This document shows, piece by piece, positions 35,438 through 53,189 of a stretch of DNA of 64,000 nt. Both the position numbers and the translations under genes were made by a program. Below the pieces are notes generated by a model. That model saw nothing but the letters and a program-made list of their open reading frames with translations. It was not told the origin of the DNA and made no database searches. How positions within the stretch are numbered: position 1 is the stretch's first letter; the number at the start of each line of letters is the position of its first letter. Location of the stretch: NCBI RefSeq assembly GCF_001422485.1, contig NZ_LMNF01000003.1:163443-227442 (forward strand), written 5' to 3'. The DNA comes from Agreia sp. Leaf283. GTDB taxonomy: Bacteria > Actinomycetota > Actinomycetes > Actinomycetales > Microbacteriaceae.

Positions 35438-36046
35438 TCAGCCGGGGAGGGTGGCCGTGCTCCAGGTGCCGTCGGCCGCGCGGCGGTACTCGGTGCGGCG
35501 GCTCGCCGTGAGCGGGGTCCCGTTCCAGAACGTGATGCGCGTGGGCTCGATCACGAAACCGAGCCAGGTGTCGGGCGGGGTCAGGGTGCCGTCTGGGTGC
35601 GCGGCGTCGAACTCGGCCCACGCCTCCTCCCGCTCGCCCGTCGGGCGCAGCGCGAACTCGGGAGAGTTGAGCCACGCCAGCAGCTGCAGGTAGCGGGAGC
35701 GGCGCGCGTACGCGACGCTCTCCTCCTCGGCCGACGCCCGCCGAGCGACGCCCTGCACCGTCAGCTGCCGGAGCTCCGCCGGCCACGCGATCGAGAACGC
35801 CACCTCGGCGTGGGCCGCGATGTCGGCGACCTTGCGGGAGCGCGAGTCGGTGTGCACGAAGAAGCCCCCCTCATCGAATTCGCTGAGCAGCACGCTGCGC
35901 GAATCCGGGCGCCCCTCGGCGTCGACCGTGGCCAGCGCGATCAACGGACGCGCGTGGTCGTCGTTCGTCGGCAGCCACTCGGTCAGCACGGCGAACGCGT
36001 CGGCAGGGATCACCGCGGCGGCCGGAGCCGGGTCGGTCGAGGTCAC
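35438..36046 (-). CDS. pyridoxamine 5'-phosphate oxidase family protein
   Basis: A 202-residue FMN-binding split-barrel protein. Family features are GRPDSRSVLLSEFDEGGFF, HTDSRSRKVADI, VQGVARRASAEES and the C-terminal TYR/FWNGTP region, close to PdxH-type enzymes. It may oxidise pyridox(am)ine phosphate, helping the several PLP enzymes here, or be a PdxH-like flavoprotein of another role. The GTG at 36046 overlaps the stop of the creatininase-family gene, so it belongs to that leftward operon. Confidence 0.78.
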   Translation of the reverse strand: MTSTDPAPAAAVIPADAFAVLTEWLPTNDDHARPLIALATVDAEGRPDSRSVLLSEFDEGGFFVHTDSRSRKVADIAAHAEVAFSIAWPAELRQLTVQGVARRASAEEESVAYARRSRYLQLLAWLNSPEFALRPTGEREEAWAEFDAAHPDGTLTPPDTWLGFVIEPTRITFWNGTPLTASRRTEYRRAADGTWSTATLPG

Positions 36047-36870
36047 GCCGACGGTCCGGCGGGGTCGAAGCGCGCGATCTCGGCGAACGCCGCCGCGGCC
36101 TGCGCCACGGAGTGCTCGAACAGCGCCGCGCCGTACGCCGCGTTGGCGGCGGTCGGGTCGCCCAGCACGCCGTCGGTTCCGAAGTCGTTCGACAGCCAGC
36201 CGAACGACACGGGCTTCTTGAACCCGATGTGTTCGAAGTCGGCCAGATGCTCGGGAACGCTGCGCTGTGCCAGCGACAGATCGACCAGGTCGGGGCGGAT
36301 GTGCATGATGAGCGACGTCTCGCTGTGGCCGCCATGGATGCCGAGGCCCAGCTCGTCGGGCCCGTCGCCCGTGCCGTCGGCCATGGGAGGCACGATCGGT
36401 CCGAGCAGGAACGTCTGCAGCCCGAAGCGGCGGCGCAGCTCGCGGCAGGCGACCTGCAGCAGGGCGAGGTTGCCTCCGTGTCCGTTGAAGAACGCCACCT
36501 TGTTCGCGGGCGTGGCCGCGATCGAGTTGCCGAGGTCGACGATGGTGTTCATCATCGTCTCCCACGTGAGCCACATGGTTCCGGATGCCCAGTGGTGCTC
36601 GTCGCTCTTGGTGTAGGCGAGGGTGGGAAGGATCCACGCGTCGACGCCCTGCCAGGCCGCGCGTTCGACGGCGGCGTTCGCGATCGCATCCGCGAGCAGG
36701 TAGTCGGTCATCAGCGGAAGGTGCGAGCCGTGATGCTCGATCGCGCCCGTGGGGATGACGACGACGGAGTCGGCGTCGAGCGCGGCGGTGGCGGCGGGAC
36801 CGGACAGCTCGACGAGCTTGCGCGTGCCCAGGTCGTTCACGACCGCGTCGTTCGCATGCGCGCCGCTCAT
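36043..36870 (-). CDS. creatininase family hydrolase
   Basis: A 275-residue protein with the metal-binding motifs PTGAIEHHGSHLPLMTD, NGHGGNLA and GIHGGHSETS. The creatininase family includes creatininase and amide hydrolases acting on heterocycles (for example FAPy deformylases of the ArfB type). It overlaps a flavoprotein gene and a PdxH-like gene, and an NMT1-type transporter is encoded upstream. A second family member lies at 48509. The substrate is not known. Confidence 0.85.
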   Translation of the reverse strand: MSGAHANDAVVNDLGTRKLVELSGPAATAALDADSVVVIPTGAIEHHGSHLPLMTDYLLADAIANAAVERAAWQGVDAWILPTLAYTKSDEHHWASGTMWLTWETMMNTIVDLGNSIAATPANKVAFFNGHGGNLALLQVACRELRRRFGLQTFLLGPIVPPMADGTGDGPDELGLGIHGGHSETSLIMHIRPDLVDLSLAQRSVPEHLADFEHIGFKKPVSFGWLSNDFGTDGVLGDPTAANAAYGAALFEHSVAQAAAAFAEIARFDPAGPSA

Positions 36871-38186
36871 GCGTCGGCTCCGACAGTCGGCTTGCCCTGC
36901 AGCTTGCCCGGGTTGAGGAGTCCCTGCGGGTCGGTGGTCTCGGCGAGGGCGAGCGTGCGCTCGACCTCGTGGTCGACGAACCAGATGTGCGGGTTGTGCA
37001 CGCCGACGCCGATCGCGGCGAGCTTGCCGAAGCCCTCGTAGACCTTCTCGGCGCTCTCGTAGATACCCGCGAGCATGCCGATCGGGCGGTTCCTCTGGGC
37101 TTCGATGTGCAGCATGCCGCCGGGGTACACGGCGTGCACCTCGTCGATGCGGTCGACGAGGGCGTCGCCCGCGACCTCGATGTGGAAGTACTTTCCCGGG
37201 TCGCTCTTCTGCAGCCACTCGATCGGGTGGTTGTACGAGATCATGCTCAGCTTCATGGCGGTCTGGGCCCCCTCGCGCACCTCCTCGACGCGGCCGCCCG
37301 CGGCCTCGATGAGAGCGGTCGCGGCCGGAACAGCTGCGATGTCGATGATCGCTCGCAGGCTCGCCCGGTCTTTCGGGATGCCCGGGTCGGCCGGAAGGGC
37401 GTTGGCCAGAACCGGGAGGTCGGCCGACACGAGTCGCGGCGTCGGCTCGAGCCGCCCGATCTCGCGGATCACCGAGATGGCCTCGTTGAACGTGTCGAAA
37501 CTGGCGAACAGGCCGCGCCAGTCCTGCAGCGGCTCGAGGGCGATCGTCGCCTGCGCGATGATCCCCGCGGTGCCGTAGGTGTGCACATAGGGCTGCGCCT
37601 CGTCGCCGTCGACGTGCACGAGCTGCGCATCCGCCGCTGCGTGCACCACGTCGAGCGCGAGCACAAAGCCCTCGTGGTTGGAGCCGTGGGCGATCGACCC
37701 GGTGCCGCCGGAGCCGCCGGAGAGGAAGCCGCCGATCGAGGACTGGGCCGTCGACGGATACATGAGGATCTGCTGGCCCGACTCACGGGCGGCCTGCTCG
37801 ATCGTGACGATCGGGGTGCCTGCGAGCGCGGTGAGGAACCCGTTTCCGACCTCCACCACCCCGCGCAGCTTCGACAGGTCGAGCACGAGGCCGTTCTCGA
37901 TCGGAATGGCCTGTCCGTAGTTGCCCGTGCCCTTGCCCCGGGGCGTGATTCCCACCGAGTGGCGAACGGCGGCGGCGACGACCTGCGCCACCTGCTCTGC
38001 CGTCGTCGGGAACGCGACGATGTCGGCGAGCCCGAGGGGGAGCTGTTCGGTGATGATCGGCGACAGGTACGAGCCGTCGGCCGAGGCCTTCTCGCGGGCT
38101 CGCAGTTCGGTCGTCACTCCCCGCTCGCCCAGGATGTCGGTGAGCTCGGCGGCGAGGGAGGTGATGTTCTCGGGCAGATCGGTCAT
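36867..38186 (-). CDS. FAD-binding oxidoreductase (GlcD/VAO-like)
   Basis: A 439-residue flavoprotein of the FAD_binding_4 type. Visible motifs are ADIVAFPTTAEQVAQVV, TPRGKGTGNYGQA, SIGGFLSGGSGGTGS and, near the C-terminus, the FAD_oxidase_C-like DPQGLLNPGK. It resembles glycolate or D-lactate dehydrogenases. In this operon, between a transporter and a creatininase-family gene, it would oxidise a hydroxyl or amine made from the imported compound. This is inference. Confidence 0.85.
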   Translation of the reverse strand: MTDLPENITSLAAELTDILGERGVTTELRAREKASADGSYLSPIITEQLPLGLADIVAFPTTAEQVAQVVAAAVRHSVGITPRGKGTGNYGQAIPIENGLVLDLSKLRGVVEVGNGFLTALAGTPIVTIEQAARESGQQILMYPSTAQSSIGGFLSGGSGGTGSIAHGSNHEGFVLALDVVHAAADAQLVHVDGDEAQPYVHTYGTAGIIAQATIALEPLQDWRGLFASFDTFNEAISVIREIGRLEPTPRLVSADLPVLANALPADPGIPKDRASLRAIIDIAAVPAATALIEAAGGRVEEVREGAQTAMKLSMISYNHPIEWLQKSDPGKYFHIEVAGDALVDRIDEVHAVYPGGMLHIEAQRNRPIGMLAGIYESAEKVYEGFGKLAAIGVGVHNPHIWFVDHEVERTLALAETTDPQGLLNPGKLQGKPTVGADA

Positions 38187-38219
38187 GGTGCAGGTCCTTA
38201 GATGGTGCCGAATGGTGAT

Positions 38220-38280
38220 GGCCCTGCGCCTGCCGTCCGACGCCCACACGAGGTGAGCGTCGGACGGCAGGCGGAGGGCC
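38220..38280. terminator. 24-bp intercistronic hairpin after the binding-protein gene
   Basis: The arms 38220-38243 and 38257-38280 pair over 24 bases with one mismatch; the core is CTGCCGTCCGACGC/GCGTCGGACGGCAG. It lies between the binding-protein stop (38301) and the flavoprotein start (38186), reading leftward. It may attenuate downstream genes or protect the binding-protein mRNA. Confidence 0.75.
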
Positions 38281-38300
38281 GACGGTGGTGCAGTCGCGGG

Positions 38301-39476
38301 TTACTTGAGACCGATGCTCTGGTCGAGGAACTCGTTGGTGAACAGGTCGGCGGGCGTGATGCCCTCGACGGGCGGCGTTCCGAGCTTGGTGAAGATCGGA
38401 GTGTCGCTGTCGATGATCTTCTGCACGCGGGCCTCGTCGAAGTCGCCGATGTAGTCGTTGTCGCCGTTGCTGACGAGTCCGAGGTCGATCATGGTCTTCA
38501 CCGAGTAGTCGGCGACGCCCTCCGAGTAGACCCAGCCGGTGTCGTACTGGTCGACGAGGTCGAGGATCAGCGCGTTCGTGGCGGCCGGGTCGTCGAAGTA
38601 GTCGACCTCGGCCTGCTGCAGAACGGGCACGAGTGCGGTGAGGCACGGGCTCAGCTCCTCGAGCTCGCCGGTGCGTACGGTGACCGCGGATGCGTAGATC
38701 TGGTAGCCGGCATCGTGGATCAGCTGGAACTTCACCGGCTTGTCCCAGGCGTCGACCTCGTTCTCGTAGATGTAGGGCTCGGCGCTCGCGAAGCCCTGCT
38801 GCGCGTCCTTGCCGCCCGAGGCGACGAAGTTGGCGGGCGTGCCGTCGTAGCCGCCGTCGGCCTGGGCCTCGGGCACGATGCCCGCTCCGATGAAGTAGTC
38901 CATGTACGCGGCTCCGCCGAAGTACTTGATGACGGCTCCAGCCTTGGTGAGATCGGCGATCGTCTCGACGTCGGGGTACGTCTCCGGATCCCACATGATC
39001 ATCTGGGGGTTGATCTCCATCGGAGCGAAGACCGCCGTGGTGGGCATGTCGGGCGAGAGCCGGAGCGACTCGTCGGTGTTGGAGTATCCGAGCGTGATGT
39101 CGGAGTCGGTGTACATCTGCGAGCTGACCGTCTGGAAGCCGATGGCAGGGCCGCCGGCGCGCACCTCGAGGTTGACGCCCGTGTACTCACCGCTCGAGTA
39201 CAGCGGACCGGAGACGCTCTTGTTGCTGGCGTCGATCACGGCGTCGTCTCCGAACATGGAGTAAAGGTGGCCGTGCTCCGATTCCGGGTTCCAGTCGGTC
39301 TGGATCGTGACGGTCGCCGGGCAGCCGGCTGCGGCCAGGTCGATCGCGCCGATGGTGAGATCCGACGCGGCGTCGGTGGCCGTGTCGGTTCCGCCGGAGG
39401 CGCAACCGGTGAGGACCAGTGCGGTTGAGGCGAGAACGCCCGCGGCCATGAGTGACCTCGATCGAGTGATACGCAT
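38301..39476 (-). CDS. NMT1/THI5-like substrate-binding lipoprotein
   Basis: A 391-residue lipoprotein with a signal peptide and the lipobox LVLTGC. The mature part has TVTIQTDWNPESEHGHLY, VNLEVRAGGPAIGFQTV and GGYDGTPANFVASGGKDA. TDWNP resembles the DWTPN/DWYPN opening of NMT1/THI5 proteins. AAGGAG lies before the ATG. The permease and ATPase genes are upstream in the same leftward operon. A close paralogue is encoded at 44598. The ligand is unknown, perhaps a pyrimidine-like ring. Confidence 0.87.
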   Translation of the reverse strand: MRITRSRSLMAAGVLASTALVLTGCASGGTDTATDAASDLTIGAIDLAAAGCPATVTIQTDWNPESEHGHLYSMFGDDAVIDASNKSVSGPLYSSGEYTGVNLEVRAGGPAIGFQTVSSQMYTDSDITLGYSNTDESLRLSPDMPTTAVFAPMEINPQMIMWDPETYPDVETIADLTKAGAVIKYFGGAAYMDYFIGAGIVPEAQADGGYDGTPANFVASGGKDAQQGFASAEPYIYENEVDAWDKPVKFQLIHDAGYQIYASAVTVRTGELEELSPCLTALVPVLQQAEVDYFDDPAATNALILDLVDQYDTGWVYSEGVADYSVKTMIDLGLVSNGDNDYIGDFDEARVQKIIDSDTPIFTKLGTPPVEGITPADLFTNEFLDQSIGLK

Positions 39477-39594
39477 GTCTTCTCCTTGAGTGATGTGCAG
39501 GGTGTGGAGGGTGCTGTTCGGTGCTGTGAACGGGTGCTGCTGAATGACGTGCTGAGTGACCGATGAGTCGAGGGGGCGTGCTGTCGCCCGGCGC

Positions 39595-40467
39595 CTACTT
39601 GCTGTAGTCGTACCACTTGCCGACGGCGAGCTTGCCCAGCCAGCCGAACACGAGGAAGACCACGACGCCGAAGAGCGCCGCCGTGATGATCGCCGCGAAG
39701 AGTTCCGGGCCCTGCACGCGCGACTGGTAGTTGCTGATGAGTGCTCCGAGGCCGGGCTCGCCACGACGGAAGAAGAAGTCGCCGACGATGGCGCCGACGA
39801 CCGCGAGGCCGGCGGAGATGCGCATGCCCGCGAAGATCGCGGGAAGGGCGGCGGGGAACTCGAGCTTCGTCAGCACGGTCCAGCGATTCGCCTTCTGCAG
39901 CTGGAACAGCTCGCGCTGGCCCTTGTCGACCGACTGCAGGCCGAACAGGGTGTTCGAGACGATCGGGAACAGCGCGATCAGGATGCAGACGATGACGCGG
40001 GCGGGAAAGTCGAAGCCGAACCAGAAACCGATGAGCGGAACGAGCGCGAGGATCGGGATGCACTGCAGGATGACGGCGTAGGGGAAGAGCGAGCGCTCGA
40101 TCCACCGCGCCTGGCTCATGGCGACGGCCCAGACGAAGCCGATGACGATGGCGATCGCGAGGCCGGTCAGGGCGACGCCGGCCGATCGGGCGAGCGCCTC
40201 CATGATGTCTCCGAGCGTCTTCGGGTCGAAGAACGCGTCGGTGAAGATCGTGTGCGGCGGCGGAACGAGGAACGACTGCTTCGGGTCGATGACCACGTAG
40301 CTGACGAAGTACCACAGGGCGACGATGACGACGAAGACCAGCACGGGCGGCACCCACGACGGAAAACGTGCGCCTCTGCGTGCGGGCATCTCCGATGCCC
40401 GGGAGATGGTTCTGATCTTCGGGTTGCTGGTGGTCACGGGCCCGGTCGGGGGAGCGGTGGTGGTCAT
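39595..40467 (-). CDS. ABC transporter permease (SsuC/TauC-like)
   Basis: A 290-residue permease with a membrane segment at WVPPVLVFVVIVALWYFV, further segments (VALTGLAIAIVIGFVWAV, VIVCILIALFPIVSNTL) and the EAA loop around GLQSVDKGQRELFQLQKAN. The ATG at 40467 overlaps the ATPase stop. It is the only permease beside the binding proteins at 38301 and 44598, so it probably works as a homodimer serving one or both. Confidence 0.9.
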   Translation of the reverse strand: MTTTAPPTGPVTTSNPKIRTISRASEMPARRGARFPSWVPPVLVFVVIVALWYFVSYVVIDPKQSFLVPPPHTIFTDAFFDPKTLGDIMEALARSAGVALTGLAIAIVIGFVWAVAMSQARWIERSLFPYAVILQCIPILALVPLIGFWFGFDFPARVIVCILIALFPIVSNTLFGLQSVDKGQRELFQLQKANRWTVLTKLEFPAALPAIFAGMRISAGLAVVGAIVGDFFFRRGEPGLGALISNYQSRVQGPELFAAIITAALFGVVVFLVFGWLGKLAVGKWYDYSK

Positions 40468-41234
40468 GAGTGTCCCTCTCGGAGCGCGTGGGAGACCTCG
40501 CCGGCGAGTTCGGCGAACTCGGGAGTGAAGCGGATCTCGGGGTCGCGGGGGTAGGCGAAGGGAACATCGAAGGTCTCGACGATCTTTCCCGGTCGGCCGG
40601 ACATCACGACGACCCGTGTCGAGAGGTATACGGCCTCGGAGACGGAGTGCGTGATGAAGAGGCCGGCGAACTGCTGCTCGGTGAAGAGCTTGATGAGTTC
40701 GTCGTTGAGGCGCTCGCGGGTGATCTCGTCGAGGGCGCCGAACGGCTCGTCGAACAGGAACAGCTCGGGGTCGAGCGTCAGGGAGCGGGCGAGGGAGGCG
40801 CGCATGCGCATGCCGCCCGAGAGCGTCTTCGGCAGGTGCTTCTCGAAGCCCTTCAGTCCGACGAGCTCGATGGCCTCGGCGGCCTTGGAGACGCGCGTCT
40901 TCTTGGGGATGCCGTTGAGTTCGGCGAGCAGTTCGACGTTCGCCTGCACGGTGCGCCAGGGCAGCAGGGTCGCGTCCTGGAAGACGTAGCCGATGCGCTT
41001 GGTCGCCACGTGCGTCTCGCCGGCCGTCGCGGGGGTGAGTCCGGAGGCGATGCGGAGCAGCGTGGACTTGCCGCATCCCGACGGGCCCACCACGGTGACG
41101 AACTCGCCTTTCTTGACCGTGAGGTCGACGCCGGAGAGCGCGGTCGTGCCGTTGGGGAACGTCATGGCGACGTCGGAGAAATTGAGAAGCTCGGTCGTCG
41201 TTGTGGCCACAGGGGGATCTGTCGTCAGCGTCAT
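40464..41234 (-). CDS. ABC transporter ATP-binding protein (SsuB/TauB-like)
   Basis: A 256-residue ATPase with Walker A GPSGCGKST, the Q-loop in VFQDATLLPWRTV, signature LSGGMRMRASLARS, Walker B LFLFDEPFGALDE and the switch His in ITHSVSEA. The ATG at 41234 has AGAGGTGA eight bases before it. A GTG at 41246 overlapping the previous stop (GTGA) is an alternative that adds four residues. It is coupled to the permease gene by ATGA. Confidence 0.9.
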   Translation of the reverse strand: MTLTTDPPVATTTTELLNFSDVAMTFPNGTTALSGVDLTVKKGEFVTVVGPSGCGKSTLLRIASGLTPATAGETHVATKRIGYVFQDATLLPWRTVQANVELLAELNGIPKKTRVSKAAEAIELVGLKGFEKHLPKTLSGGMRMRASLARSLTLDPELFLFDEPFGALDEITRERLNDELIKLFTEQQFAGLFITHSVSEAVYLSTRVVVMSGRPGKIVETFDVPFAYPRDPEIRFTPEFAELAGEVSHALREGHS

Positions 41235-41242: not shown

Positions 41243-42508
41243 TCACCTCTTTTCGAGAAGGAGTTCGGTCGGCTCGGTGGTTCGAGCCGGGAGGGCTGTG
41301 TGGTGCGTGACCTCGCTGAAGGCGACGAGGCGCCCCGCGTGGATCACGTACCGGTCGGCGGGCGCGTTCGCGACCACATCCGCAAGATTGTCGCCGCGCA
41401 CGGCGAGCAACTCTGCTTTCGCACCGACGGAGACGCCGGCGGGTTCGAGGTTCATCACCGAGCGGGCCCCGGTGCTGACGGCGGCGTACGCCTCGGTCAG
41501 GGTGAGGTGTCCGGCGGTGACGAGAAGTGAGGCGGTTTCGAGGGCGTCGCTGCGGCCGACGGGGTTGAACGGGTCGCGCACGTTGTCGGCGCCCGCACCC
41601 AGCCGCACCCCGGCATCCAGAAGCCTGCGCACGGCCGTGAGGCCGCGCGGCGTCGACACCGGATGCTGCCAGCCCTGCAGATAGAGATTGGTGATCGGCA
41701 GGGTCACGATTCCGATGTCGCTGGCCAGCACCTCGTCGATGACACGATCGAGTTCGCCCTGTTCGAGGGTGCCGAGGCGCACGCAGTGGCCGGCGGTCAC
41801 GGGCCTCGAGTCGGGCCAGTCGCGCACGGTGCGCGCGAGTTCGGCGAGCGTGTAGCCGCCGGTGAGGCTCTCGTCGGTGTGGATGTCGACGCCGACGCCG
41901 CGGGCGGTCGCGATGGCGAGCAGCCTCTGCAGGTCGGCGCTCTGGTCATCGGCCAGATGCGGGGCACCGCCGACGAGGTCGACGCCGAGGTCGAGGGCTG
42001 CCTCGACGTCGGCCGTGGGAATCGTGGGCCCGGCGAGGGCGGCGAGCTCGATGTGCATCAGCTCGCTGAGTTCGTCGCGCACCTGAACCAGTGCCTGCAC
42101 GCCGCGCAGGGGCTCGTCGCCCGACAGCACGTCGACGTGGCAGCGCACCGCGGTGGTTCCGTTCTGCAGCAGCAGCAGGGCTGCCCGGCGGGCGCGGTCG
42201 GCGATCGACTCGACACTCATCGTGGCCGAGTAGGTCTTCCACGACTCGATGGCCAGCCCGAGGTCGCCCATGGGCGGTTCGATCAGGTCCCAGGACAGCG
42301 CCTTGTCGAGGTGGGCGTGGGGTTCGGCCGGTGCGGTGAGCAGCACGAAGCCCGTCAGATCGAGGGTCTCGGATGCGGCGACCGGCGTGGAGCCGCCCGC
42401 CGGACGGATCGCGGTGACCGTGTCGGCGGTGATCTCGACGTCGACGACGGAGCCGTCGTCGAGGGTCGCCGAGCGGAGCAAGGAGATGTCTCTCGGCAGT
42501 GCGCTCAT
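41243..42508 (-). CDS. cytosine deaminase-like amidohydrolase
   Basis: A 421-residue metal-dependent amidohydrolase. The first ligands are in APAEPHAHLDKALSW, the next in VRCHVDVLSG and GVDIHTDESL, then TAGHCVRLG and the Asp in LGAGADNVRDPFNPVG. HAHLDK and the DNVRDPF pattern resemble cytosine deaminases and N-isopropylammelide-type hydrolases. It would remove an amino group or open a ring of an imported N-heterocycle. First gene of the leftward operon with the ABC transporter, divergent from the reductase at 42714. Confidence 0.85.
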   Translation of the reverse strand: MSALPRDISLLRSATLDDGSVVDVEITADTVTAIRPAGGSTPVAASETLDLTGFVLLTAPAEPHAHLDKALSWDLIEPPMGDLGLAIESWKTYSATMSVESIADRARRAALLLLQNGTTAVRCHVDVLSGDEPLRGVQALVQVRDELSELMHIELAALAGPTIPTADVEAALDLGVDLVGGAPHLADDQSADLQRLLAIATARGVGVDIHTDESLTGGYTLAELARTVRDWPDSRPVTAGHCVRLGTLEQGELDRVIDEVLASDIGIVTLPITNLYLQGWQHPVSTPRGLTAVRRLLDAGVRLGAGADNVRDPFNPVGRSDALETASLLVTAGHLTLTEAYAAVSTGARSVMNLEPAGVSVGAKAELLAVRGDNLADVVANAPADRYVIHAGRLVAFSEVTHHTALPARTTEPTELLLEKR

Positions 42509-42713: not shown

Positions 42714-43670
42714 ATGTCTGTGCACCTCACCGAGATCCCCGCCGTCGTCTCCCGCATCGTCGATGTGGCCGACGGGGTCAAGACGATCGAGTTCCGTGCC
42801 GTCGACGGTTCCGAGCTGCCCGTGTGGACGCCCGGCGCCCATCTCGACGTGGTCATCCGCGATGGCGTCGAGCGGCAGTATTCGCTGTGCGGCGATCCGG
42901 CGTACAGGCAGTCCTACCGCATCGGCGTGCTGCGCGAAGACGGCGGTCGGGGCGGTTCCCTGTCGATGCACACCGAGCTGGCGGTGGGCAGTCGCGTGCG
43001 ACTGCGGGGCCCGTTGAACCACTTCGAGCTCGTGCCCGCCGACAGCTACCTCTTCATCGCGGGTGGTATCGGCATCACTCCTCTTCTCCCCATGATCCGC
43101 TCCGCCGAGATGGCCGGGGCGACCTGGACTCTCGCCTACGCCGGTCGCAGCCGGCGAACGATGGCGTTCCTCGACGAGCTCGAGAGGCAGTTCGGCGACC
43201 GGGTGCGCGCGTACACCGCCGACGTCGACGAGCGAATGGATGTCGCGGCTCTCGTCGCCGGGGCGAGTGACGGCACCCTCGTCTACTGCTGCGGGCCCGC
43301 CAGGCTGCTCGCCGCGGTCGAGGACGCATCCACCTCGCTTCCGCACGGCAGCCTGCACCTCGAACGATTCGAGGCGCGCGAGACCGGCGCGCCCATCCTC
43401 GACGATTCCTTCGAGGTCGAGCTGACCCTGTCGGGGGAGACGCTGACGGTGCCGCCCGACCGGTCGATCCTCGACGTCGTCGAGGAGGCCGGAGTACTGG
43501 TGCTCTCGTCGTGCCGGGAGGGGACCTGCGGAACCTGCGAGACCCCGGTGGTGTCGGGCGAGGTCGATCACCGCGACTCCGTGCTCACCCCAGACGAGCA
43601 GGCCGACAACGAGGTCATGATGATCTGCGTGTCGCGGGCCGCCTGCCCGCGTCTGGTGCTGGAGCTCTGA
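42714..43670 (+). CDS. PDR/VanB-type ferredoxin reductase (FMN and [2Fe-2S])
   Basis: A 318-residue oxygenase reductase. An N-terminal flavin-binding barrel has RQYSLCGDP. An NAD-binding domain follows (FIAGGIGITPLLPMIR, LVYCCGPARLL), and a plant-type ferredoxin ends the protein with CREGTCGTCE and a fourth Cys in ICVSRAACPR. Such proteins pass electrons from NADH to Rieske oxygenases or demethylases. No oxygenase gene is present in the window, so the partner is either elsewhere or unknown. Divergent from the cytosine deaminase-like gene. Confidence 0.9.
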   Translation: MSVHLTEIPAVVSRIVDVADGVKTIEFRAVDGSELPVWTPGAHLDVVIRDGVERQYSLCGDPAYRQSYRIGVLREDGGRGGSLSMHTELAVGSRVRLRGPLNHFELVPADSYLFIAGGIGITPLLPMIRSAEMAGATWTLAYAGRSRRTMAFLDELERQFGDRVRAYTADVDERMDVAALVAGASDGTLVYCCGPARLLAAVEDASTSLPHGSLHLERFEARETGAPILDDSFEVELTLSGETLTVPPDRSILDVVEEAGVLVLSSCREGTCGTCETPVVSGEVDHRDSVLTPDEQADNEVMMICVSRAACPRLVLEL

Positions 43671-45778: not shown

Positions 45779-47188
45779 ATGACGACACCACGCAGCATCC
45801 TGATCACGGGCGCCACCCTGCTGCCCGTGGCGAACGACGCCCCGGAGACCATCTTCGACGGCTGGATGCTCGTGGAGGACGGCATCATCGCGTCGCTCGG
45901 GGAGGGCGAACCTCCCCGGGTCGACGCGCATGTCGAGGTCGTCGATGTGGCGGGCGCGTTCGTGGCGCCGGGATTCGTTTCGGCCCACAGCCATCTCTTC
46001 ACCAGCGGCTCACGTGGACTCGGTGTGAACGAGACGCTCTACGGCTGGTGCACCGCGATGTTCGCCGTGACGGGTGCGGCGACGCCGGAGCAGATCTACT
46101 GGTGCACGCTGCACGGCGCCTTCGACATGCTCAACAACGGCGTGACGACGGCGTTCGACTTCACCGACGGGAGGCTCGCCTGGGAGCCGCTCGTCGACGG
46201 CCGACGTGTCGACGACGGGCCGCAGGAGCTGCGGGCCCTCGAGTATCTGACCCGGCAGGCCGACGCGAAGCTCGACAGCGGAATCCGCTTCGTGAACTCC
46301 GTGATGATCGACGACACCGTCGGCACCCGAGAGGATGTTCTCGCCCGGCTCGGCGGGATCGTCGCGCACTGCGAATCGCTCGACCGCGACTTCATGCTGC
46401 GCGCCGCGATCTCGGGAGCCGGCCAGTGGTCCCCGAATCCCGACTGCGCCGAGATCGAGGTCGAGGCGATGCGTCGCTTCGGGCTCATCAACCAGGCTCA
46501 TCTGCTCGAGACGCGCGAGGCCGTCGAGCTGCAACGCGAGAAGTTCGACCGCTACGAGGCGGCGGGCGCCCTCGGGCCCGACTTCATCTTCGGGCACTTC
46601 ATCCAGACCACGCCCGACATCCTGCGCCGCACGGCCGACGGTGGAGCGAGCATGTCGTGGCAGCCGAACGCGAATGGCCGACTCGCCTCGGGCGTCGCGG
46701 CCATTCCCGAGATCCGGGCCCTCGGCATCCGGGTCGGCATGGGCCTCGACGACCAGGCCTGCACCGATATCTCCGACCCGTGGCAGAACATGCGCATGGG
46801 CATGTACGCCGTGCGCGCCACGACCGGCGACCCCGATTCGCTCTCGACGGCCGACATGCTGCGGATGCATACACTCGGCTCGGCGGAGATTCTCGGCATC
46901 GACGACAGGGTCGGCTCCCTCGAGCCCGGCAAGTTCGCCGACTTCGTGATCGTCGATCCCCGGTCGCCCGACATCGGGCCCCTCTGGGAGCCGATGTCGA
47001 GCTACGTGCTGGCGTGCGGCCTGCGCAACCTCAAGAAGGTGTACGTCGGGGGAGTGCTGCGCTCGGTGAGCGGCGACGCGATCGACCCCCTGGCCTCCGA
47101 GGCGAGTCGTCAGATCCACCGCATCCTTCCCGAGATCACCACGGGCGCGCCCCTGGCCGCCGCGGCCCTCGCCGGAGCCCGCTCGTGA
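45779..47188 (+). CDS. TrzN/AtzA-like amidohydrolase (deaminase/chlorohydrolase family)
   Basis: A 469-residue enzyme of the cytosine deaminase-like superfamily. The first metal motif is FVSAHSHLFTSGS, where AHSH supplies the HxH ligands. Later parts are GLINQAHLLETREAV, FGHFIQTTPD and the Asp in MGLDDQACTDISDPW. LEPGKFADFVIVDP is the usual end. It would remove an amino or other leaving group from a heterocycle. The first codon lies two bases after the binding-protein stop, and it overlaps the next gene by four bases (GTGA). Confidence 0.84.
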   Translation: MTTPRSILITGATLLPVANDAPETIFDGWMLVEDGIIASLGEGEPPRVDAHVEVVDVAGAFVAPGFVSAHSHLFTSGSRGLGVNETLYGWCTAMFAVTGAATPEQIYWCTLHGAFDMLNNGVTTAFDFTDGRLAWEPLVDGRRVDDGPQELRALEYLTRQADAKLDSGIRFVNSVMIDDTVGTREDVLARLGGIVAHCESLDRDFMLRAAISGAGQWSPNPDCAEIEVEAMRRFGLINQAHLLETREAVELQREKFDRYEAAGALGPDFIFGHFIQTTPDILRRTADGGASMSWQPNANGRLASGVAAIPEIRALGIRVGMGLDDQACTDISDPWQNMRMGMYAVRATTGDPDSLSTADMLRMHTLGSAEILGIDDRVGSLEPGKFADFVIVDPRSPDIGPLWEPMSSYVLACGLRNLKKVYVGGVLRSVSGDAIDPLASEASRQIHRILPEITTGAPLAAAALAGARS

Positions 47189-47940
47189 GCACTCCGTTCT
47201 CGCCGCACGGCTGGCCCGTCGTCGACGGCCGCGTCGACCTCACCCGCACCGGCCGCGCTCCGGAGCCCGTCGACCTCGAGGCTCAGCCGCAGCCACTCAC
47301 CCTCGACCTCGACCGCACCGCGATCATCGTGGTCGACATGCAGAACGACTTCTGCGCGCCCGGCGGATGGCTCGACGGCATCGGCGTCGACGTCTCGCCG
47401 GCGCTCGCGGCCATCGAGCCGCTGAACGACATCCTTCCGGCGCTTCGCGGCGCCGGCGTGCCCGTGATCTGGCTCAACTGGGGTAACCGGCCCGACCGGC
47501 TCAACCTGCCGGCGAACGTGCTGCACGTCTACGACGCCGACGGCTCGGGCGGCGGCATCGGAGATCCGACGGAGAACGGCGACGCCGTGCTCACGAAGGG
47601 AAGCTGGGGAGCGGCCATCGTCGACGGCCTCGAGGTGGCGCCCACCGACATCCATGTCGACAAGTTCAGGATGAGCGGCTTCTGGGACACCCCGCTCGAC
47701 AGCATCCTCCGCTCCCTCGGCGTCGACTCGCTGCTCTTCGCCGGTGTCAACGCGGACCAGTGCGTGCTCGCGACCCTCACCGACGCCGCGTGCATCGGCT
47801 ACGACTGCGTGATGATCGAGCAGGCCAGCGCCACCACGTCGCCCGACTTCTGCCTGGCCGCCACGGTCTACAACGTGCGCCAGTGCTTCGGCTTCACCAC
47901 CACACCGGATGCGCTCTTGAACGCGCTTCCTCGACCCTGA
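47185..47940 (+). CDS. isochorismatase-family cysteine hydrolase (RutB-like)
   Basis: A 251-residue amide hydrolase. The catalytic Asp is in IIVVDMQNDFCAPGGW, the Lys in VDKFRMSGFWDT and the nucleophilic Cys in AGVNADQCVLATL. This pattern is close to ureidoacrylate (RutB), biuret or N-carbamoyl hydrolases. It probably cleaves a carbamoyl or ureido product left after ring opening by the neighbouring enzymes. GTG start overlapping the amidohydrolase stop. Confidence 0.87.
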   Translation: MSTPFSPHGWPVVDGRVDLTRTGRAPEPVDLEAQPQPLTLDLDRTAIIVVDMQNDFCAPGGWLDGIGVDVSPALAAIEPLNDILPALRGAGVPVIWLNWGNRPDRLNLPANVLHVYDADGSGGGIGDPTENGDAVLTKGSWGAAIVDGLEVAPTDIHVDKFRMSGFWDTPLDSILRSLGVDSLLFAGVNADQCVLATLTDAACIGYDCVMIEQASATTSPDFCLAATVYNVRQCFGFTTTPDALLNALPRP

Positions 47941-47957: not shown

Positions 47958-48019
47958 ACACCCCGAACAAGCACACCCCGAACAAGCACACCCCGATCAA
48001 GCACACACCCCGAACAAGC
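47958..48019. repeat. four tandem copies of a 15-bp unit before the cupin gene
   Basis: The unit ACACCCCGAACAAGC occurs at 47958, 47973, 47988 (one change) and 48003 (17 bases, with an AC insertion). The array ends shortly before the ribosome site of the cupin gene and fills the gap after the cysteine hydrolase gene. No coding frame is evident. Confidence 0.85.
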
Positions 48020-48032
48020 ACAGGAGAGCCCC

Positions 48033-48509
48033 ATGGCCGCCGCACCCATCCTCAAGCACCTCAGCGATCTGAAGGCCCACCGCATCACCCCTGGCGACAC
48101 CGTGCGCCTCGTGCCGCTCGCCGGCCCCGACGACGACTCTCCCGCGAGCGTCTTCTTCGAGATCTGGGACCCGTCGGGCGTGCAGCCGGACAACTCCCAC
48201 CCCGACTCCGTCGAGATCTTCGTGTTCCTCGAGGGAGAGGGCGAGGCCTTCAGCGACGAGCACTCGGTGAAGGTCGCCGCGGGCGACGTGCTCATCCTGC
48301 CCAGCGGCTCGGTGCACCACATCAAGAACACCTCCGAGACGGAGCGCCTCTACGCCGTCACGATCATGGCGAACGACCTGGGATCTCAGGAGCTCGGCGC
48401 GACGACCGGGTTCGAGCACCTCGTGAAGAGCGGCGGAGAGGTCGAGTTCGAGGACTCCGACAAGGCCGTGCTCTTCGCGAGCCTCCGCGCGCTCGCCGGC
48501 CCCGCCTGA
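48033..48509 (+). CDS. cupin domain protein
   Basis: A 158-residue single cupin. The first motif is around NSHPDSVEIFVFLEGEGE and the second is GDVLILPSGSVHHI, giving a typical metal-binding barrel. AGGAGAG stands before the ATG. It may be an isomerase, dioxygenase or ligand-binding protein in the same pathway; nothing decides between them. The next gene begins one base inside its stop (TGATG). Confidence 0.82.
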   Translation: MAAAPILKHLSDLKAHRITPGDTVRLVPLAGPDDDSPASVFFEIWDPSGVQPDNSHPDSVEIFVFLEGEGEAFSDEHSVKVAAGDVLILPSGSVHHIKNTSETERLYAVTIMANDLGSQELGATTGFEHLVKSGGEVEFEDSDKAVLFASLRALAGPA

Positions 48510-49297
48510 TGCCGCATAGGCCCCTGCTCGCCCGCCTGTCGACCACGCGGGTCGCGGCGATCGATATGACCGACGCTGTCGTCATCCAGCCGATCGGCGC
48601 CTTCGAGCAGCACGGCCCGCACCTGCCGCTCGACACGGATGCGCTGGTGGCCGAGACGGTCGCGGCGCGCGCGGTCGCCGGCCTGCCCGACGACTCCAAC
48701 GTGTGGATCCTGCCGACGCTGCGCTACGGCAAGTCGAACGAGCACGCGGGCCGCGTGGGCACCATGACCCTCAGCGCCTCGACCCTCATCTCCCTGCTGC
48801 TCGACGTCGGCGAATCGGTCGCCGCCTCGGGCTTCCGCAAGCTGGTGTTCGTGAACGCGCACGGCGGCCAGCCGCAGCTGCTCGAGATGGTGTCGCGAGA
48901 CATCCGGGCGGCCACCGGCCTGCAGGTCTTTCCCGTGAGCGCCATGCACCTCGGCGAGCCCGAGGGCATGACCTGGGACGACGAGGGCTTCAGCATTCAC
49001 GGCGGGCAGTCGGAGACCTCTGTGGTGATGGCGATCGACGAGAGCCTCGTCGATCTCGACGTGGCGGCCGCCGACGGCGTGGCACTGGGGAGCCTGTTCG
49101 CGGGCTTCACCCACCTGACTCTCGAGGGGGCCGTTCCCACGGCGTGGCTCACGAACGACGTGTCGACGAATGGCGTGATCGGCGACCCGCGGCGCGCGAG
49201 CCCTGAGCTCGGTGCGCGCGTGCTCGGCCACTGGAGCGGCGCCCTCTCGGAGGCGCTGCTCGAGATCAAGCGGTTCGAGTGGCCAGAACTGCGCTGA
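48509..49297 (+). CDS. creatininase family hydrolase, second member
   Basis: A 262-residue protein with QPIGAFEQHGPHLPLDTDA, NAHGGQPQ and SIHGGQSETS as metal-binding motifs. It is related to the protein at 36043 but differs clearly, so the two probably take different substrates. It ends the rightward operon begun at 44598. Its last 32 bases overlap the end of the convergent amidohydrolase gene. Confidence 0.86.
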   Translation: MPHRPLLARLSTTRVAAIDMTDAVVIQPIGAFEQHGPHLPLDTDALVAETVAARAVAGLPDDSNVWILPTLRYGKSNEHAGRVGTMTLSASTLISLLLDVGESVAASGFRKLVFVNAHGGQPQLLEMVSRDIRAATGLQVFPVSAMHLGEPEGMTWDDEGFSIHGGQSETSVVMAIDESLVDLDVAAADGVALGSLFAGFTHLTLEGAVPTAWLTNDVSTNGVIGDPRRASPELGARVLGHWSGALSEALLEIKRFEWPELR

Positions 49298-50582
49298 GCC
49301 GCGAGGCCAGCTCGCGCTGGTCGTGGTCGACGAGCTCGTAGTCGCGCACGACCACGCGGCCTGCCACGACGACGTGCTTCGGCCGGCGGCCGGGATTCGC
49401 CCAGAGCAGGCCGGCGACGGGATCGGCGACCCCCGCGTCGGCGACCCCCGACACGTCCCAGACGCACAGGTCTGCGGCGGCGCCGTGGCGCAGGTGGCCC
49501 AGTTCGTCTCGGCCCAGCCCCCGTGCGGAACCCTCGGTCGCCATGCCGAGCACCTCGCGCGCGGCCAGGGCCGGGCCGACGAGAGGCGCGACCTGCATGG
49601 CCAGGCGCGCGTCTGCGAGCAGGTGTCCGGCGTCGTTGCTGCCACCCCCGCTCGTGCCGAGGCCCACCGGGATACCCGCGGCGCGCAGGGCGGCGACGGG
49701 CGCGATTCCCCAGCCCATCGGCAGATCGCAGCCGGGCGCGTGCGTCGCCGTGACGCCGGTGGATGCGAGTCGGGCGATCTCCTCGGGCGTGACGGCGCAG
49801 AGATGGGCGATCGTGACGTCCGGCGCGAGCCAGCCCCACTCGTCGAGCAGCTCGATCGGTCGGCGGCCGTACTTCTCGAGGGCGATCGCCACGTCGACCT
49901 GCTCGTTGGCCTGCGTCCTGCGGCGCAGCCCGTGCCGCTCGGCGACCTCGCCGAGAAGGCGGAACGTCTGCTCGCTGTCGCTGTGCACCCCGGCCGGCCC
50001 GACGGCGAGCTGCAGCATCCCGTCGTTCGAGACGCCGCCCTCGGCGTTGGCCACCAGATCGGCGACGATGCGTTCTGCCGAGAGGGCGGCCTGCTCGGGG
50101 TCGTCGCGGGCGGAGCCGCGCACGAAGACCAGGCGCCCGCCCAGCTCGGCGGCCGCCGACGCGGTGGCGCGAGCGATACCCACGTCGTCGCACCCCTCAG
50201 GCCACGTGAGGTGGTGGTCGGCCACGGTGGTGACGCCCGAGAGCAGCCCCTCGGCGACACCCACGAGCCCCGCCGTGCGCGCGAGTTCTGGGTCGATGCC
50301 GACCGCGCCATAGGCTGCCGCCATCGTCTTCAGCCACTCGCTCATCACGACACCGCGCGTGCCCGGAAGCGTTCTGAATGCGCTTTGCAGCAGGTGATGA
50401 TGCGCGTTGACGAGACCCGGCGTCACGACGCAACCGGATGCATCCAGCACCTCGGTCTCGTCGCTCTCGCTCGTCGCCGCGATCGCGTCGGAGACGACGA
50501 ACCCGTCGACCAGGGCCAGATCAGCGGTGCTCTCGCGGGTCTCGTCGATGAGGGTGGTCACGGCATTGCGGATGAGAAGCAT
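49266..50582 (-). CDS. amidohydrolase lacking two expected metal ligands
   Basis: A 438-residue protein of the 8-oxoguanine deaminase/atrazine chlorohydrolase group. The HxH motif is present (LVNAHHHLLQS) and so is the His in TIAHLCAVTPEE. The His of the HxxE motif is replaced by Gln (RTQANEQ, codon CAG), and the catalytic Asp of the GTDG motif is replaced by Ser (LGTSGGGSNDAGHLL, codon AGC). The homologue at 51825 keeps both. The reading frame is intact, so it may be a pseudoenzyme, a partner subunit or a differently tuned hydrolase. It is divergent from xdhC. Confidence 0.8.
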   Translation of the reverse strand: MLLIRNAVTTLIDETRESTADLALVDGFVVSDAIAATSESDETEVLDASGCVVTPGLVNAHHHLLQSAFRTLPGTRGVVMSEWLKTMAAAYGAVGIDPELARTAGLVGVAEGLLSGVTTVADHHLTWPEGCDDVGIARATASAAAELGGRLVFVRGSARDDPEQAALSAERIVADLVANAEGGVSNDGMLQLAVGPAGVHSDSEQTFRLLGEVAERHGLRRRTQANEQVDVAIALEKYGRRPIELLDEWGWLAPDVTIAHLCAVTPEEIARLASTGVTATHAPGCDLPMGWGIAPVAALRAAGIPVGLGTSGGGSNDAGHLLADARLAMQVAPLVGPALAAREVLGMATEGSARGLGRDELGHLRHGAAADLCVWDVSGVADAGVADPVAGLLWANPGRRPKHVVVAGRVVVRDYELVDHDQRELASRLSAVLATRTA

Positions 50583-50670
50583 TGACCAGTTCTAGCACCT
50601 CCGTGTGTCAGGATTGTTGCAGTCGCAACGAGGCCTCTCCACCGCCCTCCTCGCCGAAAGAGACGCTCCC

Positions 50671-51828
50671 ATGCTCGACATCGCAGACGACCTGCTCGAG
50701 GCTCTCGGCGAGGGCCGCCGTCTCGCCGTCGCGACCGTCACCACCGTGGATGGCTCGGCCCCGCGGGCCCTCGGCACCTCGATGGCCGTCGACGACCGAG
50801 GGCGCGTGCTCGGCAGCATCTCGGGCGGGTGCGTGGAAGGCGCCGTCTACCAGGCGGCCGAAGGCGTGCTCGAGACGGGCGAGCCCGTTCTCGCCGAGTT
50901 CGGCTTCACCGACGGAGACGCCTTCGCCGCCGGCCTCAGCTGCGGCGGACGCATCGAGGTGTTCGTGCACGAGATCGCTATGTCGGGCGCTCGTGGGCGG
51001 CTCGGCGACCGGGTCGTGCACGAGCTCAAGGCCACCCGCGACCGGCGCCCCGCGGGCATCGCCGTGGTGGTCGCCGGCGCAGCGGTGGGAACCGTGATCG
51101 CCGCGACGGCCTCGGCGACCGAGGTCGAACGCGACGGGCTCGATCTCGCCACCGCGCAGCGCATCCTGCACGAACTCACGGCGCGGGTGTCGTCCGGCCT
51201 CTCGGGCACCGTCGACATCGAATGCGACGGCGAGCCGCTGCGGGTGCTGTTCGTCGTGGCGGCGACGGCCCCCCGCATGATCATCTTCGGCGCCGTCGAC
51301 TTCTCGGCCGCGCTCGCCGACGCCAGCAGCCTTCTCGGTTACCACGTGACGGTATGCGACGCGCGGCCGCTGTTCGCCACGTCGCAGCGCTTCCCCTCGG
51401 CCGACGAGGTCGTCGTCGCGTGGCCCTCGGAATACTTGCGCACCACCCCAGTCGACGAGCGAACCGTGATCTGCGTGCTCACCCACGACGAGAAGTTCGA
51501 CATCCCCTTGCTGTCTCTGGCTCTTGGACTGCCCGTGGCGTACGTGGGGGCGATGGCGTCGCGCACGACGCACGAACGTCGCGTCAGGGCTCTCGAAGAC
51601 GCGGGTCTGAGCGCGGCCGAGCTCGGGCGCCTGCACTCGCCGATCGGTCTCGACCTGGGCGGCAGCACACCGCAGGAGACCGCGGTGTCGATCCTCGCCG
51701 AGGTGATCGCAAGTCGAACCGGCTCGGCCGGGGTGTCGCTGCGCACGCAGACCGGGCCCATCCATCGCACCGAAGCGGCCCGCACCGAGTCGGCTTCAAC
51801 GGTCTCGACCGGGGCGGCCCGGCCGTGA
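50671..51828 (+). CDS. xdhC: XdhC/CoxI family protein
   Basis: A 385-residue protein. The N-terminal XdhC/CoxI domain has TTVDGSAPRALGTSMAV, GSISGGCVEGAVY and GLSCGGRIEVFV. The C-terminal Rossmann domain has YHVTVCDARPLFAT, HDEKFDIPLL and SPIGLDLGGSTPQETAVSI. XdhC binds and sulfurylates the molybdenum cofactor and inserts it into xanthine dehydrogenase, here probably the enzyme at 56782. It overlaps the following deaminase-like gene by four bases (GTGA). Confidence 0.92.
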   Translation: MLDIADDLLEALGEGRRLAVATVTTVDGSAPRALGTSMAVDDRGRVLGSISGGCVEGAVYQAAEGVLETGEPVLAEFGFTDGDAFAAGLSCGGRIEVFVHEIAMSGARGRLGDRVVHELKATRDRRPAGIAVVVAGAAVGTVIAATASATEVERDGLDLATAQRILHELTARVSSGLSGTVDIECDGEPLRVLFVVAATAPRMIIFGAVDFSAALADASSLLGYHVTVCDARPLFATSQRFPSADEVVVAWPSEYLRTTPVDERTVICVLTHDEKFDIPLLSLALGLPVAYVGAMASRTTHERRVRALEDAGLSAAELGRLHSPIGLDLGGSTPQETAVSILAEVIASRTGSAGVSLRTQTGPIHRTEAARTESASTVSTGAARP

Positions 51829-53189
51829 CCGGCGCGCGCACCGTGATCGAGGGCGCCTACATCGCCACGGTCGACGCCGCCGACACAGAGCACGTCTCCG
51901 GTCACGTGGTGATCGACGGCACCGACATCGTCGCGGTCGGCCCCGGTGCTGCGCCGCAGTGGGCGACAGAGGGGCCGGTGACGCGCATCGACGCACGCGG
52001 GCACCTGCTCACTCCGGGCCTCATCAACACGCACCACCACCTCTACCAGTGGCTCACCCGAGGCATCGCCCAGGATTCGATCCTCTTCGACTGGCTGACC
52101 GCGCTCTACCCGATGTGGTCGAAGATCGACGCCGAGGTCGTGGCGGCCGGCGCTCTCGGCGGCATGGCCGTGGCCGCTCGATCGGGATGCACCACCCTTG
52201 CCGATCACCACTACGTGTTCCCGCAGAACTCCGGCGACATCCTGGGCGCGATCGTCGACGCTGCCGGCAGGCTCGGAATCCGCCTGCATGCGACCCGGGG
52301 GTCGATGGACCTCGGCCGAAGCCAGGGAGGGCTGCCGCCCGACTTCGCCGTCGAGACGACGTCGGCGATCCTCGATGCCAGCATCGACGCGGTATCCCGT
52401 TTCCACGACCCCTCCCGCGATGCCATGACGCAGATCGCCCTCGCGCCCTGCTCGCCGTTCTCGGTGACCTCGGATCTGCTGAGGGAGTCGGCCGTGCTCG
52501 CCCGCTCGCTCGGCGTTCGACTGCACACCCACGGGTCGGAGACGGTCGAGGAGGACGCCTTCTGCGCCGAGAAGTTCGGCCGCACGCCCACCGAGTACCT
52601 CGACGACCTCGGCTGGCTCGGCGACGACGTGTGGATGGCGCACTGCGTGCACCTCGACGACTCGGCGATCGCGCGGTTCGCGGCGACGGGAACGGGCGTC
52701 GCGCACTGCCCCTCGTCTAACGCGCGCCTCGCCGCCGGCATCGCGCCGGTGCCGCAGCTGCTCGCCGCCGGTGTGCCTGTCGGTCTCGGCGTCGACGGCT
52801 CGGCATCGAACGAATCCGGCCAGCTCGGCACCGAGATCCGTATGGCGGTGCTCATGAACAGGCTCCGCGCGGGCGCCGACGGGATGTCGGGTCGCGCGGG
52901 GCTGCGCCTCGCCACCATGGGCGGCGCCCGGGTGCTCGGCCGAGAACGGGAGATCGGTTCGATCGAGGTGGGCAAGCTCGCCGACCTGGCCCTGTGGAAG
53001 GTCGACGGGATCGAGCACGCCGGCATCGCCGACCCGGTGGCCGCCCTCACCCTCGGCGCTCAGCCGCCGCTGGCGCTGCTGCTCGTGAACGGTTCGGCCG
53101 TCGTGCGCGAGGGAGAACTGACCCGCCTGCGCGAGGCCGACGTCGCGCGCGACGTGGCCACGGCATCCGCTCGCCTTCGGTCGCGCTGA
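51825..53189 (+). CDS. 8-oxoguanine deaminase-like amidohydrolase
   Basis: A 454-residue enzyme. Metal-site motifs are intact: INTHHHLYQWLTRG, RLHTHGSETVEED, WMAHCVHLDD, AHCPSSNARLAAG and the Asp in LGVDGSASNESGQL. This arrangement matches 8-oxoguanine deaminases and the related chlorohydrolases. It would deaminate a purine-like base, possibly before oxidation by the XdhC-dependent dehydrogenase. The GTG overlaps the xdhC stop, so the two are co-translated. Confidence 0.88.
   Translation: MTGARTVIEGAYIATVDAADTEHVSGHVVIDGTDIVAVGPGAAPQWATEGPVTRIDARGHLLTPGLINTHHHLYQWLTRGIAQDSILFDWLTALYPMWSKIDAEVVAAGALGGMAVAARSGCTTLADHHYVFPQNSGDILGAIVDAAGRLGIRLHATRGSMDLGRSQGGLPPDFAVETTSAILDASIDAVSRFHDPSRDAMTQIALAPCSPFSVTSDLLRESAVLARSLGVRLHTHGSETVEEDAFCAEKFGRTPTEYLDDLGWLGDDVWMAHCVHLDDSAIARFAATGTGVAHCPSSNARLAAGIAPVPQLLAAGVPVGLGVDGSASNESGQLGTEIRMAVLMNRLRAGADGMSGRAGLRLATMGGARVLGREREIGSIEVGKLADLALWKVDGIEHAGIADPVAALTLGAQPPLALLLVNGSAVVREGELTRLREADVARDVATASARLRSR

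Follow-up and report, generated by a model that had tools for sequence, protein, structure and literature searches.

A conserved actinobacterial gene module around a 6V42-type flavin oxygenase in Agreia sp. Leaf283, with a pterin-type heterocycle as candidate substrate

The closest described system to the locus reported here is the flavin oxygenase of structures 6V42 and 6V43, together with the rhizobial, Pantoea and Klebsiella gene clusters that encode enzymes of its family; 6v42 was deposited under the title 'Crystal structure of the flavin oxygenase with cofactor bound involved in folate catabolism'. In the Rut pathway of uracil breakdown, a flavin oxygenase and a separate reductase open the ring, and amidases finish the degradation. 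According to PMC9513972, the pterin deaminases Arad3529 and Variovorax F1 PDA are amidohydrolases placed near predicted cytosine and creatine amidases, and the 399-residue Variovorax folate/pteroate deaminase has endoribonuclease genes downstream. Here, we analyzed a window of 64,000 nucleotides (positions 163443-227442 of contig C3) in the 3.98-Mb genome of the Agreia-type actinobacterium Agreia sp. Leaf283. Sequence comparison gives good support to the view that this window carries a module centred on a 6V42-type flavin oxygenase, homologous to the proteobacterial one and representing its form in actinobacteria. The module is referred to below as the core and occupies window positions 35438-43670 plus 49266-50582.

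Gene models were derived from open reading frame (ORF) lists, start-codon checks, and Pfam and NCBIfam profile searches. An earlier note on this DNA had described positions 36043-53189 as one undescribed locus for the import and breakdown of N-heterocycles. The families that it named were found there, including two creatininases, four amidohydrolases, a RutB-like hydrolase, a cupin, an XdhC, a FadR-type regulator and a reductase, and the import and breakdown of N-heterocycles is well supported. The block is, however, not one pathway: it is composed of three layers, namely the widely conserved core, a six-gene insert present in few genomes, and two genes best assigned to purine breakdown (XdhC and an 8-oxoguanine deaminase). 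Two features had been missed, a PNPOx-like gene at 35438-36046 that overlaps the operon end, and a uricase, allantoinase and xanthine dehydrogenase context on both sides. The core comprises the following genes, including those of an ATP-binding cassette (ABC) importer:

35438..36046, minus strand: PNPOx/PhzG-like FMN split-barrel protein (PNPOx_N 2.6e-15, PNP_phzG_C 2.6e-7)
36043..36870, minus strand: Creat1, creatininase-family amidohydrolase (PF02633 2.8e-60, scored on the longer ORF 36043-37218)
36867..38186, minus strand: FADox, flavin oxygenase of the 6V42 family (FAD_binding_4 PF01565 4.3e-22; 6v42 match)
38301..39476, minus strand: SBP1, lipoprotein substrate-binding protein with a ThiY-like fold in its AlphaFold model (best fold match 3ix1, 4.2e-15)
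39595..40467, minus strand: ABC permease (PF00528 2.9e-26, scored on a longer ORF)
40464..41234, minus strand: ABC ATPase (PF00005 1.6e-28)
41243..42508, minus strand: CytDl, cytosine/pterin-deaminase-type amidohydrolase (Amidohydro_3 2.8e-19)
42714..43670, plus strand: Red, PDR-type NAD(P)H reductase with a C-terminal 2Fe-2S domain (Fer2 2.4e-15, NAD_binding_1 9.9e-6)
49266..50582, minus strand: Amh4, TrzN/8-oxoguanine-deaminase-type amidohydrolase (Amidohydro_1 3.2e-34; 3ls9 3e-64)

The minus-strand operon runs in the order CytDl, ATPase, permease, SBP1, FADox, Creat1 and PNPOx-like gene, with four-base overlaps at permease/ATPase, FADox/Creat1 and Creat1/PNPOx; the PNPOx-like gene closes the operon, and its GTG start overlaps the Creat1 stop. 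Red is divergent from CytDl and is followed by FadR, SBP2, Amh3, the RutB-like gene, the cupin and Creat2 of the insert, and then by Amh4 (minus strand), XdhC and Amh5.

FADox has a single close solved relative, 6v42, which was matched at 1.2e-45 by sequence (next match 1.7e-10) and at 1.9e-56 by profile. The AlphaFold model of FADox (mean pLDDT 84.7) also gave 6v42 as its top fold match (1.1e-32), ahead of D-lactate dehydrogenases (1.1e-23). The earlier note had called this protein glycolate-oxidase-like; a FAD_binding_4 protein does lie at 36867-38186, but it belongs to the 6V42 family and scored 63.7 bits against the glycolate oxidase GlcD cut-off of 567.9 (TIGR00387). A sequence word in the flavin domain, GTGNYGQ, is shared with 6v42. 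All 27 family rows contained it, as did 10 of the 11 proteobacterial regions (the exception being Klebsiella L189) and all 80 named actinobacterial loci considered below, which were found partly by that word; it was present in none of the nine loci of this genome's other FAD_binding_4 proteins. The enzymes from actinobacteria and those from proteobacteria fell into two sister clades in the tree.

A direct search of plasmids with FADox gave no match at 1e-30, and the proteobacterial clusters were reached via an SBP2 match in a Nitratireductor plasmid, where genes for a creatininase, a cytosine deaminase, a FAD-binding oxidoreductase and ABC proteins stand together. The FAD enzymes matched 6v42 with 513.8 bits in Nitratireductor and 693.2 bits in Agrobacterium. 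Among 17 plasmid regions examined, for which the gene tables are incomplete, 11 carried a 6V42-type enzyme (10 compared or found by BLAST, and L164 by annotation and signature). All 11 contained a creatininase and a full three-gene ABC importer, and 10 contained a deaminase-type amidohydrolase (not L170). Reductases were found in eight, as an NAD(P)H-dependent oxidoreductase in six and a PDR/VanB reductase in two; the one oxidoreductase that was profiled, that of L161, is flavodoxin-like. RidA was annotated in 10 of the 11 (not in L161), and we take endoribonuclease to be an older name for RidA, so that the gene downstream of the pterin deaminases would be of RidA type, as in the Pantoea cluster.

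The window core has the same partners beside its FAD enzyme, namely a creatininase, an ABC importer, a deaminase-type amidohydrolase and a reductase. It differs from the proteobacterial clusters in having an MTHFR-like neighbour and purine surroundings. In the sets compared, FADox, the permease and the ATPase were reciprocal best matches with the proteobacterial clusters, the window ATPase being 69% identical to that of the Nitratireductor cluster, and the cluster binding proteins were split between SBP1 and SBP2. CytDl was the best window match of the amidohydrolases in 6V42-type clusters. Red was 35.5% identical to the PDR/VanB reductase of the Pantoea cluster, a value obtained with no control on other PDR reductases. 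The plasmids pADP-1 and Agrobacterium leguminum p3 were rejected as 6V42-type clusters, as their amidohydrolases were 44% identical to that of Pantoea with no FAD enzyme nearby. On the atrazine plasmid pADP-1, this amidohydrolase (L188 7941-9272) lies near atzD and the LysR regulator adjoining it.

When we examined actinobacterial genomes, FADox was detected in 38 of 249 in a family sample, and at 1e-80 in at least 2 of 396 in a phylum-wide sample, counted among four candidates scored per genome listed. The window FADox was 99% identical to the enzyme of Agreia sp. PsM10 and 94-96% identical to those of four other Agreia genomes. We mapped 21 regions from 20 of the 38 FADox genomes with the window genes, and the order PNPOx, Creat1, FADox, SBP, permease, ATPase, CytDl, Red, Amh4 was repeated in most of them. 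Creat1 and FADox were swapped in three of the 21 and in Subtercola loci, the region of G087 is without the importer, and G007 has a second FADox copy in other surroundings.

We then considered 80 loci, the best 80 of 245 relatives from a scan of named genomes, a set biased toward close relatives. These loci span Microbacteriaceae, Arthrobacter, Cellulomonas, Demequina, Kineosporia, Blastococcus, Modestobacter and Klenkia. The earlier note had proposed a search for the same neighbourhood in other genomes, and the grouping recurs: PNPOx was present in 75 loci, Creat1 in 74, SBP in 74, permease in 72, ATPase in 73, CytDl in 75, Red in 71 and Amh4 in 66. All nine core genes, counting the importer as three, were found in 47 of the 59 untruncated loci, and the one-strand order CytDl, ATPase, permease, SBP, FADox was kept in 47 of the 57 that could be scored. 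These results support well that the gene module is real and conserved.

Two further genes accompany the core in relatives. An SDR gene lies between SBP and FADox in 35 of the 80 loci by clustering and 39 by tblastn (e.g. L101 9140-9907), and an XRE-cupin regulator occurs in 48 by clustering and 53 by tblastn (e.g. L111 4720-5352). The window itself gave no match to the XRE-cupin regulator and only a 37% match to the SDR, at 53229-53885.

For the function of the core, we consider it about an even call that it imports and ring-opens a heterocycle of the pterin type, such as a product of folate breakdown. SBP1, the permease and the ATPase would import the compound, and CytDl, perhaps with Amh4 too, would remove an exocyclic amino group. 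FADox would then oxygenate and open the ring with electrons from Red, and Creat1 would hydrolyse the cyclic amide so formed, while the PNPOx-like FMN protein might oxidise a dihydro form or supply flavin. Hydroxylation of the pteridine by the neighbouring xanthine dehydrogenase is conceivable and may explain the location of the module in a purine cluster. The gene families, their conservation and the homology to the proteobacterial module are results of the comparisons made here; the substrate, the order of the steps and the pairing of FADox with Red are our inference. A pterin was not among the candidates of the earlier note, which had listed a purine or pyrimidine analogue, a triazine-like ring and an N-methylated lactam.

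The pterin lead is based on the title of 6V42, the neighbouring genes, the fold of the SBP1 model and a likeness of layout. The neighbours include a gene that lay near the core in 44 of the 80 loci and that is placed in the window as follows:

33173..34207, plus strand: MTHFR-like protein with DUF5981 (PF02219 1.7e-6)

FTCD_C genes lay near the core in L145 (by Pfam) and L152 (by tblastn only), and one stands beside a 47% FADox homologue in L070. The AlphaFold model of SBP1 (pLDDT 91.0) had as its best solved matches the formylaminopyrimidine-binding protein ThiY (3ix1) and a thiamin-binding protein. SBP1 had no match in Pfam, NCBIfam or, by sequence, the PDB, and SBP2 none in Pfam. The earlier note had named an NMT1/THI5-type importer: the ATPase, the permease and two binding proteins are there, and the NMT1/THI5 likeness of both binding proteins, which neither Pfam search gave, rests on the SBP1 model. 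Finally, the Pantoea cluster amidohydrolase has 399 residues and is followed by RidA, a layout like that of the Variovorax deaminase in PMC9513972.

Several observations weigh against this reading. The identity of FADox to 6v42 is only about 28%, and the enzyme falls outside the clade of the proteins closest to 6v42; the fork that joins the actinobacterial and proteobacterial clades is weakly supported (81/47), with a long-branch warning and a midpoint root. RidA gave no match in the window or the 80 loci (tblastn, two queries, E 1e-3); conversely, the core has Amh4- and PNPOx-type genes, for which the proteobacterial clusters inspected showed no annotation next to their FAD enzyme. Each of the nine cluster creatininases compared resembled Creat2 of the insert more closely than Creat1. 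The MTHFR-like gene is the only PF02219 match in the genome and may for that reason be the cell's ordinary MetF, and FTCD_C was near the core in just 2 of 80 loci. ThiY-like folds bind other ligands, as sulfonate-binding and other proteins occur in the same list of SBP1 fold matches. The link to folate is the deposited title; in the literature searched, which covers few subscription journals, we found no paper on 6V42 or on this gene set. The earlier note knew of no described pathway with this gene set, which holds for that literature; the core is homologous to the 6V42-type clusters. As a separate observation on the MTHFR-like gene, the cell may rely for its methionine route either on this gene or on an enzyme that was not recognised.

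CytDl also bears against the pterin reading, as its nearest relatives among the proteins compared were amidohydrolases of Paracoccus, Sinorhizobium and Aminobacter (33-35% identity, versus 27-32% to the cluster enzymes). These relatives (two in Paracoccus) adjoin xanthine dehydrogenase, urate hydroxylase or similar purine or nucleobase genes, and in their plasmid regions no 6V42-type enzyme was annotated and no signature word was found. In view of this nearer kinship outside 6V42-type clusters, we lowered our confidence in a pterin from slightly above even to even, and raised somewhat that in the chief alternative. Under this alternative, the core would be a part of purine breakdown, acting for example on methylated or oxidised purines or on hydantoins derived from them, and its resemblance to 6V42 would say nothing of the substrate. 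The purine genes of the window are as follows:

28281..29125, plus strand: OHCU decarboxylase and HIU hydrolase, purine context (PF09349 1.8e-39, PF00576 2.9e-38)
29249..30661, minus strand: guanine deaminase, purine context (NF006679 351.1 bits, cut-off 351; TIGR02967 304.5, under the cut-off of 375.4)
30663..31568, minus strand: uricase, purine context (TIGR03383 343 bits, cut-off 168)
31611..32987, minus strand: allantoinase AllB, purine context (TIGR03178 554 bits, cut-off 358)
50605..51828, plus strand: XdhC, molybdenum-hydroxylase maturation, purine layer (XdhC_C 1.2e-39)
51825..53189, plus strand: Amh5, 8-oxoguanine deaminase, purine layer (NF006055 642.7 bits, cut-off 532; 3hpa 8.7e-126)
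56782..60434, minus strand: xanthine dehydrogenase-type genes, purine context (large subunit PF02738 4.2e-74; FAD subunit 59613-60434, PF00941 1.6e-18)

To the left of the block stand the guanine deaminase, OHCU decarboxylase, HIU hydrolase, uricase, allantoinase and MTHFR-like genes, and to the right a molybdenum hydroxylase and a FAD subunit; the 2Fe-2S part of the large subunit, the sole PF02738 match in the genome, was recognised by eye. Amh5, and XdhC by its family, are best read as genes of ordinary purine breakdown, since the flanks hold purine genes and the scores of the uricase, the allantoinase and the 8-oxoguanine deaminase are above curated cut-offs. For the core itself, the evidence is divided. 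Among the 59 untruncated loci, 28 had a uricase nearby and 28 had XdhC or xanthine dehydrogenase, and near the proteobacterial clusters we observed ureidoglycolate lyase with hydantoinase B (L159) and XdhC with a molybdenum aldehyde oxidoreductase (L164). On the other hand, none of eight purine genes was detected in 20 of the 59, so that the core is separable from purine breakdown; the known enzymes of the purine route are already present in the window, and no uricase was annotated in the 11 proteobacterial stretches shown, whose gene tables are incomplete. We regard a purine substrate as a serious but unlikely alternative.

It is improbable that the core acts on the pyrimidine half of thiamin (hydroxymethylpyrimidine (HMP) or its formylamino form) or another aminopyrimidine. 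The fold matches of the SBP1 model to formylaminopyrimidine- and thiamin-binding proteins and the cytosine-deaminase type of CytDl agree with such a substrate, but the TM-scores were only 0.59-0.60 over the query at 15-18% identity, and the relative of the FAD enzyme is filed under folate. Moreover, the whole window had no Rfam match at the gathering score, and hence no thiamin riboswitch; two chance-level matches appeared at E up to 1 within 27000-57000.

Some core proteins were also compared with characterized families. The PNPOx-like protein stayed under the curated cut-offs for PdxH (110.3 of 180 bits) and PhzG (83.8 of 270 bits), and Creat1 did not reach those for creatininase proper or MftE. 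As a cytosine deaminase, CytDl scored 175.1 of 438 bits (NF005748) and 169.5 of 403 bits (NF005759), and the latter model gave 692.5 with the rhizobial and 220 with the Pantoea cluster enzyme. Its residues H64, H66, H210, E213, H241 and D308 were invariant in the alignment examined and presumably form the metal site, as in cytosine deaminase. A Rieske partner for Red was rejected, as the three Rieske matches in the genome are all on contig C2, and the locus is on C3.

The insert at 43689-49297 separates Red from Amh4 and contains six genes:

43689..44375, minus strand: FadR/GntR regulator (FCD 1.8e-23, GntR 7e-20)
44598..45776, plus strand: SBP2, second binding protein (60.6% identical to SBP1)
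45779..47188, plus strand: Amh3, TRZ/ATZ-type amidohydrolase (Amidohydro_1 8.8e-36; ATG at 45779)
47185..47940, plus strand: RutB/BiuH-like cysteine hydrolase of the isochorismatase family (Isochorismatase 4.2e-34)
48033..48509, plus strand: cupin (Cupin_2 1.6e-12)
48509..49297, plus strand: Creat2, second creatininase-family protein (PF02633 1.3e-64; 39% identical to Creat1)

Red and Amh4 are 17-106 bases apart in four other Agreia loci, from which the insert is missing, versus 5596 bases with six genes in the window. The complete set was found in one of 20 sampled genomes (G192); the PsM10 locus (L076), which stops at the cupin, shows the first five genes. Among the 80 loci, Amh3 homologues occurred in 10 (PsM10 and nine more), a cupin homologue in two (PsM10 and Arthrobacter L131, where it is 72% identical and directly follows Creat1), and the RutB-like gene in one. 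The Amh3 and cupin homologues in other core loci tie parts of the insert to the core. In our reading, the insert is a second set of genes for importing and hydrolysing a related ring. The outline of the block recalls the Rut pathway, and the insert encodes a RutB-like protein; however, the Rut oxygenase has another fold, and the isochorismatase scored 152.7 bits against a cut-off of 377.95 for true RutB (TIGR03614), and 129.7 against 370 for the biuret hydrolase BiuH (NF050097). Breakdown of creatinine or N-methylhydantoin by a deaminase, ring opening and a carbamoylsarcosine amidase of the isochorismatase family, with MTHFR taking the one-carbon unit, would draw on the creatininase and isochorismatase families and the MTHFR-like neighbour, but is very improbable, as Creat1 and Creat2 scored 79.6 and 84.3 bits against the creatininase (EC 3.5.2.10) cut-off of 235 (TIGR04448), the isochorismatase is confined to the rare insert, and the 6V42-type enzyme is given no role.

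Other genes with related functions were observed in this genome. An FmdA/AmdA formamidase, an amidase with an AtzH-like domain and a class V aminotransferase at 19141-23622 of the window adjoin purine genes in several relatives, and 1652-5964 holds a pyrimidine-type cluster of a carbon-nitrogen hydrolase, a dihydropyrimidinase-like amidohydrolase, a luciferase-like monooxygenase and an ABC permease. Between the purine and core genes, an ORF at 34405-35355 resembles, by eye, an AbiEi-type antitoxin protein. A second cluster lies on contig C1 (L185 7748-15533). It encodes a creatininase, an ABC importer and two amidohydrolases with a distant resemblance to Amh5; the binding protein of the importer shares 28% identity with the one in the Paroceanicella cluster.

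Taken further, the pterin reading leads to a broader proposal that we make only tentatively: the core may be a complete and widespread route, common to Actinomycetota and Proteobacteria, that opens the pteridine ring of folates and pterins by means of a flavin oxygenase of the VAO fold and a hydrolase of the creatininase family. The Agreia insert would add a second pteridine, and MTHFR- and FTCD-type neighbours would recover one-carbon units from imported folates. Such a role would correct the misleading family names glycolate oxidase, cytosine deaminase and creatininase. The discussion of PMC9513972 leaves as a question whether and how deaminated folate products are degraded further by soil and rhizosphere bacteria, and a gene set conserved in actinobacterial genomes and proteobacterial plasmids, with an importer and a solved relative of its flavin oxygenase, makes this question a directly testable enzyme set.

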